Assembly: GCF_031181185.1 (NCBI RefSeq)
Contig: NZ_JAPSKZ010000013.1
Span: 1-37,226 of the forward strand
Direction: 5' to 3'
Origin: Phenylobacterium sp.
GTDB taxonomy: Bacteria; Pseudomonadota; Alphaproteobacteria; Caulobacterales; Caulobacteraceae
Length of the DNA stretch: 37,226 nucleotides
Part shown: piece by piece, positions 7,484 to 8,811 of the stretch
Position numbering within the stretch: the first letter of the stretch is position 1
Layout: every line of letters begins with the position of its first letter
Notes under the pieces: generated by a model
Told to the model about the DNA's origin: nothing
Seen by the model: the letters and a program-made list of their open reading frames with translations, nothing else
The model's database searches: none
Position numbers and translations under genes: made by a program

Positions 7484-7596
7484 CGGCTTAACGGTCGGTC
7501 AAACCTGCGCCCGCATGCCGCAAAAGGACGCGAGGCGCTATCGCTCTTGGCGCTAAAGTAGACGCGGAACCAAAGCCGTCGTTTACTAGCGCTGTC

Positions 7597-8373
7597 ATGG
7601 CCCCGCGGACCGACGCCCCGACGAACCCCGCCGAGCTGCTCACGCAGCGCGAGCGCGAATGCCTGCGGCTCGTGGACCAGCATCTCAGCTCCAAGCAGAT
7701 CGCCCGCGAGCTCGGCATGTCCAAGACGTCGGTCGACACCTACTGCGACCGCGCCCGCCGCAAGCTGGGCGTGCCCGACCGGTACGAGGCGGCGCGGATG
7801 CTGCGGCGCTTCGATCCGGCGGCTGTCCTGACCGGATCAGGACAGGACGCGATCAGGACAGACAACCCGGCCGACCCTGGGCTGGATGACCCCGCAACCA
7901 ACGGGGGACCCCATGGGCGACTGGCAGAACTTCGACAATCGCGCGGTGATCGGCAAAGCGCTCCGCCTGCGCCGGGAGATCGACGACTTCGAGGCGAGGT
8001 GGCCGACCCCCGCGAAGCGGGAGGAGACGCTTCCGAGCTTCTCCTGGACGCAGCTCGAGCGGCAGCTCGTCGATCTCGCGGCGACGCCCGCCCAGGCGGA
8101 CATGGCCCGGCACCTGGTCTCCGCGACCCGCAAGCTGGCGCCGTTCAAGCCGCCGGAGATGGTGCTGCGCGAAATCCTGTGTCTGACCTGGGTTCTCCTG
8201 GACGAGAACTTCCGGCCGGACGCCGACTTGGGCGAGGGCTCGGCGCAAATGAGCTAGGCCCAGCTGCGCGGCTTGGTGCGATCGTGGCCGTGGCGATCCT
8301 GACCGCCCTCGCCTTCGGAGGGATGCTGGCGGGTCTCCACGCGCTGCAGAACCTGGCCGCGAACTTAACCTAA
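7597..8373 (+). CDS. LuxR-type HTH transcriptional regulator ORF with C-terminal TM helix; central third is out of its natural coding frame (likely interrupted)
   Basis: N-term LTQRERECLRLVDQHLSSKQIARELGMSKTSVDTYCDRARRKLGV (LuxR HTH); C-term NELGPAARLGAIVAVAILTALAFGGMLAGLHALQ (membrane helix). The middle translation is Arg/Gly/Pro-rich, typical of a wrong frame. Confidence 0.6.
   Translation: MAPRTDAPTNPAELLTQRERECLRLVDQHLSSKQIARELGMSKTSVDTYCDRARRKLGVPDRYEAARMLRRFDPAAVLTGSGQDAIRTDNPADPGLDDPATNGGPHGRLAELRQSRGDRQSAPPAPGDRRLRGEVADPREAGGDASELLLDAARAAARRSRGDARPGGHGPAPGLRDPQAGAVQAAGDGAARNPVSDLGSPGRELPAGRRLGRGLGANELGPAARLGAIVAVAILTALAFGGMLAGLHALQNLAANLT
7823..7845. repeat. Perfect inverted repeat CTGTCCTGA-CCGGA-TCAGGACAG
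   Basis: 9-bp arms, 5-nt loop read directly from sequence; GATCAGGACA also recurs as a direct repeat at 7835-7844 and 7851-7860. Confidence 0.85.
7914..8257 (+). CDS. Hypothetical protein, 114 aa, overlapping the LuxR ORF in another frame
   Basis: MGDWQNFDNRAVIGKALRLRREIDDFEARWPTP...LCLTWVLLDENFRPDADLGEGSAQMS; natural composition, strong G/C third positions, Shine-Dalgarno-like GGGGGA upstream. Confidence 0.7.
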
Positions 8374-8451: not shown

Positions 8452-8811
8452 ATGCTTAAGCAACGTCGCATGGCCGCCGAGCAGATCGCCGGCGCCCTGT
8501 TCGAGGCCGAAGCCGCCATTGACGCGGCCCTGGCCAAGACCGCCCACCTCACCGGCGTCATGCCGTCCCTGCGCAAGATGGCGGGCGCCTCGGCCCTCGT
8601 CGGCCAGGACGCGGTCGAGCGCGCCAGCCAGGCGATCCTCGCGCTGGCCGAAGCCCGCCGGGCCATCGTCGAGACCCACAAGGAGCTCAGCGTCGCCCAA
8701 GGCCAGGTCGGCCTCGGCGCCGTGGCGCTCGGCGATCCGGGTGATAAGCCGCCCGCCACCGCCGCGCTGGACCGGGGCGGCCGCCGCCTGCGCGAAGTGC
8801 GCGTCGCGTAA
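8452..8811 (+). CDS. Conserved hypothetical protein, 119 aa, helical
   Basis: MLKQRRMAAEQIAGALFEAEAAIDAALAKTAHLTGVMPSLRKM...; ATG start preceded by ggagatgact; followed by a terminator-like hairpin. Confidence 0.8.
   Translation: MLKQRRMAAEQIAGALFEAEAAIDAALAKTAHLTGVMPSLRKMAGASALVGQDAVERASQAILALAEARRAIVETHKELSVAQGQVGLGAVALGDPGDKPPATAALDRGGRRLREVRVA

Follow-up and report, generated by a model that had tools for sequence, protein, structure and literature searches.

The window analysed here, a 37,226-nucleotide stretch of a 3.9-Mb Phenylobacterium genome, is best explained as containing a nested overlapping gene pair, in which a tail-anchored helix-turn-helix (HTH) regulator with a disordered linker shares its DNA with a separately started orphan helical protein, called MID. 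This reading is held with high confidence. Nested dual coding is very likely, and the part of the reading that concerns the sequence itself is close to proven; the architecture, the phase, the avoidance of stops, a coding signature for each part in its own frame and the conserved inner start were all observed in the analysis. Translation of both the inner and the outer product would follow from nested coding at this level. The features of the locus are collected in Table 1.

Table 1. Positions of the nested pair and neighbouring features in the window.
Feature	Position	Strand	Basis or description
Outer gene	7597..8373	+	258-aa LuxR-type HTH / disordered linker / predicted C-terminal transmembrane (TM) helix, tail-anchored type
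LuxR-type (GerE) HTH, outer residues 14-68	7636..7800	+	PF00196; pLDDT ~90
Conserved nucleotide element TGTCCTGA-N5-TCAGGACA-N8-TCAGGACAGAC	7824..7863	+	One inverted and two direct half-sites
Shine-Dalgarno (SD)-like run 5' of the inner start	7899..7912	+	Conserved in relatives together with the start codon
Inner gene (MID), 114-aa orphan four-helix protein, +1 frame, wholly within the outer gene	7913..8257	+	Relatives, codon-position pattern, AlphaFold
Predicted outer C-terminal TM helix, residues 222-257	8260..8367	+	Hydrophobic tail in relatives, AlphaFold
Downstream gene (DOWN), 119-aa helical-looking protein	8452..8811	+	Conserved neighbour

An earlier note on this DNA had assigned the outer protein a LuxR-type HTH at its N-terminus and a hydrophobic tail at its C-terminus, and both assignments are confirmed: the PF00196 (GerE) match reaches 53.9 bits (cut-off 23.5), and the hydrophobic tail (NELGPAARLGAIVAVAILTALAFGGMLAGLHALQ) is modelled by AlphaFold as a single helix. 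Domain searches with the outer protein returned HTH-type matches only, with no receiver or autoinducer-binding domain, and it is therefore filed under LuxR-type HTH proteins and not with response regulators or quorum-sensing LuxR proteins. The region between the HTH and the tail is of low complexity and rich in Gly, Arg, Ala and Pro. In the AlphaFold model, which was built on only 10 sequences, the HTH and the tail are folded and residues ~81-216 mostly have a pLDDT below 50. Judged at the sequence level only, the outer protein thus combines an HTH and a single TM helix in one chain in the manner of membrane-tethered transcription factors, and the predicted C-terminal helix probably tethers it to the inner membrane. 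One-component regulators of the CadC/ToxR type are membrane-tethered, with an HTH, there an OmpR-type winged helix, and a single TM segment. The present protein resembles them in having an HTH and a single predicted TM segment, but differs in that its HTH is of the LuxR type, a periplasmic sensor domain is lacking and the TM segment lies at the extreme C-terminus.

The inner ORF extends from an ATG at 7913 to a stop at 8255-8257, or over 123 aa if counted from an upstream ATG at 7886, and lies entirely inside the outer gene in a different frame. The start is 316 nt inside the outer gene, and two further in-frame starts, at 7886 and 7946, are found in the present genome. GC contents at the three codon positions of the inner frame are 0.67/0.45/0.93, a gene-like signature that is missing from the outer frame over the same region. 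A purine-rich sequence, AACGGGGGACCCC, directly precedes the ATG at 7913. The SD-like run is weak in this genome (GGGGGA); among relatives, the inner start (ATG or GTG) is conserved along with an SD-like run, which takes the form AGGAGG or AAGGAG in several of them. The conserved start and the accompanying run suggest that translation of MID initiates internally at this position. An out-of-frame 114-aa gene with its own start, as the earlier note had proposed, is well supported by these features.

Based on 34 relatives, the AlphaFold model of MID has a mean pLDDT of 87.6 and contains helices at residues 4-29, 45-55, 59-78 and 81-96. No significant match to MID was obtained in domain libraries, PDB sequences or PDB folds. 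A profile search across 385 genomes of the class detected no homologues outside the Caulobacteraceae, none were found in other families of the order, and plasmid and phage records contained none either. As far as was searched, MID appears to be an orphan family limited to the Caulobacteraceae.

Sequence searches detected MID in 29 of the 60 relatives sampled, all members of the same genus, and in 124 of 249 sampled Caulobacteraceae genomes, representing 9 of 22 genera. The DNA around ~190 loci was read, and 141 distinct loci remained once duplicates had been removed. Of these, 137 share one arrangement, with a LuxR-type HTH on the 5' side of MID, MID in the same +1 phase relative to it, and an outer frame that is open past MID and ends in a hydrophobic segment in 136 of the 137. 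The distance from the inner stop to the aligned outer tail segment is 14 nt in 76 of 77 aligned loci. Among the 137 nested loci are diverged paralogues whose MID sequences are 30-40% identical, as well as diverged nested copies from two genomes that belong to other genera and had been scored as MID-less by a simple search. In some cases, including L030, the diverged paralogue is a second copy within one genome, with another hydrophobic tail and the same phase. An outer-tail profile run across the class returned weak short matches only, which were taken as noise.

This distribution bears on the possibility that the regulator gene was broken by a recent insertion or frameshift and now yields a truncated or defective HTH protein. 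The Arg/Gly/Pro-rich noise read in the middle of frame 1 is what such damage might look like, and the earlier note had accordingly pictured an intact regulator of 140-170 aa interrupted here by an inserted gene. That picture does not survive the comparison: the same nesting recurs at all but four of the distinct loci, in several genera of the Caulobacteraceae, and no relative was found in which HTH and TM are joined in an uninterrupted gene that lacks the inner one. A broken gene is extremely improbable.

The four non-conforming loci are L029, L172, L146 and L094. L029 and L172 each fit a single indel, as does L091, the one nested locus with its tail out of frame, and L146 is truncated by the end of its contig. 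The apparent indels in L029, L091 and L172 shift the frames relative to each other, and may be draft-assembly errors or signs of decaying copies. The remaining locus, L094, comes from another genus and contains a MID relative (1403-1729) with no HTH beside the gene, which may suggest that the inner protein has a role of its own. The outer-type frame of L094 happens to be open in the conserved part, so this locus is unusable as a control.

On the downstream side, DOWN is found on the same strand at a distance of ~200 nt or less in 123 of the 137 nested loci, making HTH-TM/MID/DOWN a conserved cluster; several genomes have more than one copy of the unit. DOWN, itself an orphan protein, is also present in family members where neither the HTH nor the inner gene was found.

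The outer frame had been described in the earlier note as kept open. From one genome this argument is weak, since ~60% of 342-nt windows in other ORFs of the analysed stretch are open in the equivalent frame, and a comparison of relatives is needed. For this comparison, synonymous codons were shuffled inside each MID, leaving protein and codon use unchanged. Over the 137 loci, 185 outer-frame stops were expected and none was observed. The third frame, with 404 stops observed against 373 expected, shows that there is no general avoidance of stops. With one locus taken per cluster at <70% DNA identity (28 loci), 33 outer stops were expected and none was observed (log10 P = -18.7); because the loci are related, P values are guides only, and the version with 28 clusters is the fairer one. 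A direct test gave the same picture. A T at MID codon position 3 creates an outer stop if the next codon starts with AA, AG or GA, and such a T was present in 0 of 1933 cases in MID, against 7.2% in the HTH and 6.2% in DOWN. Outer stops are also absent from the nine loci below 64% GC (GC 0.55-0.64), where 11.5 were expected. A chance open frame in GC-rich DNA was considered as a candidate explanation and is ruled out by the permutation and the low-GC loci.

Across relatives, then, the frame is indeed kept open, and the outcome of two nested products that the earlier note had listed is the one favoured by the common phase and the missing stops. Another of its outcomes, a 258-aa fusion with a junk linker, stands as well; what falls is the treatment of the two as alternatives, as they are one and the same thing. 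The same data weigh on a reading as three small genes, encoding a soluble HTH protein, MID and a separately started TM peptide, with the open outer frame as a by-product of high GC. The high GC of the genome and the frequent chance openness of the equivalent frame are in keeping with this reading, but it does not account for the deficit of outer stops under shuffling, which holds at low GC and is not shared by the third frame, and a separate TM peptide needs no open frame across MID. Three independent genes are therefore very improbable.

Substitution patterns provide further information about the two frames. Substitutions per codon position are 0.125/0.066/0.33 in the MID frame, and 0.18/0.09/0.47 for the tail in the outer frame, a normal coding pattern. 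For the overlap in the outer frame, the values are 0.33/0.13/0.07, with position 1 the most variable and position 3 the least, which is the reverse of a coding gene. Selection is thus visible on both frames, on the inner one by its codon-position pattern and on the outer one by the absence of stops and the coding pattern of the tail. The lower synonymous divergence that constraint on both amino-acid sequences would produce was not found in the overlap: the four-fold divergence of MID matches that of the HTH and DOWN, with a slight reduction confined to the very closest pairs. Because four-fold divergence is not reduced, and because the differences fall at MID position 3 and produce the reversed outer pattern, the outer linker is called free or nearly free in its residues over the overlap, with stops alone excluded, as judged from these sequence comparisons. 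The low pLDDT of this region in the outer model is in agreement. The earlier note had been prepared to abandon its reading if the outer middle proved conserved at the amino-acid level; only the open frame is conserved, and the residues drift.

The conserved element upstream of MID encodes VLTGSGQDAIRTD in the outer frame and sits between the HTH and the inner start. Of 61 Phenylobacterium loci, 60-61 retain its GGA, AGG and ACA codons, each of which has a background use of ~3%. The retention of such rare codons indicates that the element is conserved as DNA or RNA and not only for the peptide it encodes. The two arms co-vary at position 6 of arm 1, where T-A occurs in 37 distinct sequences, C-G in 8 and a C-A mismatch in 3, while the third copy of the repeat is fixed. 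The perfect repeat occurs once in the present genome, at this locus. The element was not seen in its present form in the aligned loci of the other large genus, and a search of Rfam gave no match. The element may act as an RNA hairpin and tune translation of MID, or alternatively serve as a binding site or operator.

A hairpin between the HTH and MID could also point to programmed frameshifting, in which ribosomes would leave the HTH frame for the inner one and make an HTH-MID fusion as an alternative to the HTH-linker-TM protein. L029, with its HTH and the C-terminal half of MID in one frame, would fit this possibility, but looks more like a single indel inside MID in a draft genome. Frameshifting into MID would be expected where the inner frame has no start of its own, and MID has a conserved ATG or GTG with an SD-like run, located 49 nt past the element in most of the Phenylobacterium loci checked. 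It is also common in Phenylobacterium for an in-frame stop to lie ~80 nt before the inner start. Frameshifting is unlikely, if slightly less so than the three-gene and broken-gene readings.

The preferred reading is therefore that of an old nested gene pair, with both genes on the same strand. The 258-aa protein would come from ribosomes that start at 7597, and would consist of an N-terminal LuxR-type DNA-binding domain, a linker of ~145 disordered residues and one C-terminal membrane helix, by which the regulator would be anchored at the inner membrane. Other ribosomes would initiate internally at the ATG at 7913, in the +1 frame, and produce a separate, soluble, all-helical protein of 114 aa. 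The MID coding sequence would double as the DNA for the outer linker, and selection would act on the residues of the inner protein and, over the overlap in the outer frame, on the absence of stops alone, because the linker need only connect the HTH to the TM helix.

The inner protein may be a co-produced partner or modulator of the regulator, made from the same mRNA. Given that MID is nearly always inside a regulator gene and that the regulator was not found without MID, a joint role is the most likely of those considered, though it is put forward tentatively. A more specific version, to which a similar, rather less than even, chance is given, is that MID antagonises its own regulator or serves as an anchor partner for it, comparable to anti-sigma or toxin-antitoxin systems, with the nesting setting the ratio of the two. 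HTH and MID co-occur in every locus but one, and their loss is apparently joint: at E 1e-8, 24 of the 27 genomes that lack a first-pass MID hit gave no match to the HTH. By analogy, the nested Rz/Rz1 genes of phages encode interacting partners (PMC6139136). Against this version stand the MID fold, which has no significant PDB match, and the lone MID-family copy in L094. As to origin, it is possible, if somewhat doubtful, that MID arose de novo by overprinting of the disordered linker in an ancestor of the Caulobacteraceae, then became an obligate partner and was duplicated as a nested unit, with the 7824-7863 repeat setting how much MID the shared mRNA yields.

Most long genes nested out of frame are viral or, in bacteria, claimed for single strains, and an old and consistently kept gene within a gene has rarely been documented in cellular genomes. 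In the lambda Rz/Rz1 pair, the membrane helix of the outer protein is N-terminal. In these embedded spanins, as in the present pair, a gene for a membrane protein contains the inner gene in its +1 frame, and annotation often misses the inner gene (PMC6139136). Unlike the present pair, they are phage lysis proteins without an HTH, and no sequence relation is implied. In Thermus, the starts of rnpA and rpmH are one nucleotide apart and share an SD sequence (Feltens et al. 2003, as outlined in PMC9841429). This, too, is a case of a bacterial gene wholly nested out of frame on the same strand, with both genes real; there both proteins are well known, whereas here the inner protein is an orphan, and its start lies 316 nt inside the outer gene and is preceded by a separate SD-like run. 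The overprinted genes pop and laoB of E. coli O157:H7 are antisense and are described as recent or narrowly distributed (PMC7103648, PMC5810103). Like the present pair, they overlap over a long distance in a cellular bacterium and fall outside the rules of annotation, but the present pair is on the sense strand and is spread over a family. The present pair departs from rnpA/rpmH and Rz/Rz1 in that the inner gene has a separate start and encodes an orphan protein, and also in its family-wide spread and its free but open linker. No description of the HTH-TM/MID pair was met with in the literature searched, a body that has most subscription journals outside its scope, and a term search of the main text of the Caulobacter ribosome-profiling paper found no discussion of out-of-frame nested genes there.

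One bacterial family keeps a nested pair across genera and paralogues, and the evidence is clean that one frame is constrained at each residue and the other only in having no stops. The pair offers a test case for the persistence of nested genes, in which the overlap falls on a disordered linker that tolerates nearly any sequence, and it is testable in ordinary laboratory Caulobacteraceae. Annotation standards reject long out-of-frame nested genes (PMC8665328), and single-frame pipelines would lose either the regulator or its nested neighbour in the Caulobacteraceae.

An imperfect inverted repeat, AGTAGACG-N15-CGTTTACT, is located just 5' of the HTH start, at 7557-7587. It is largely conserved in one Phenylobacterium clade, and may represent a promoter or operator.
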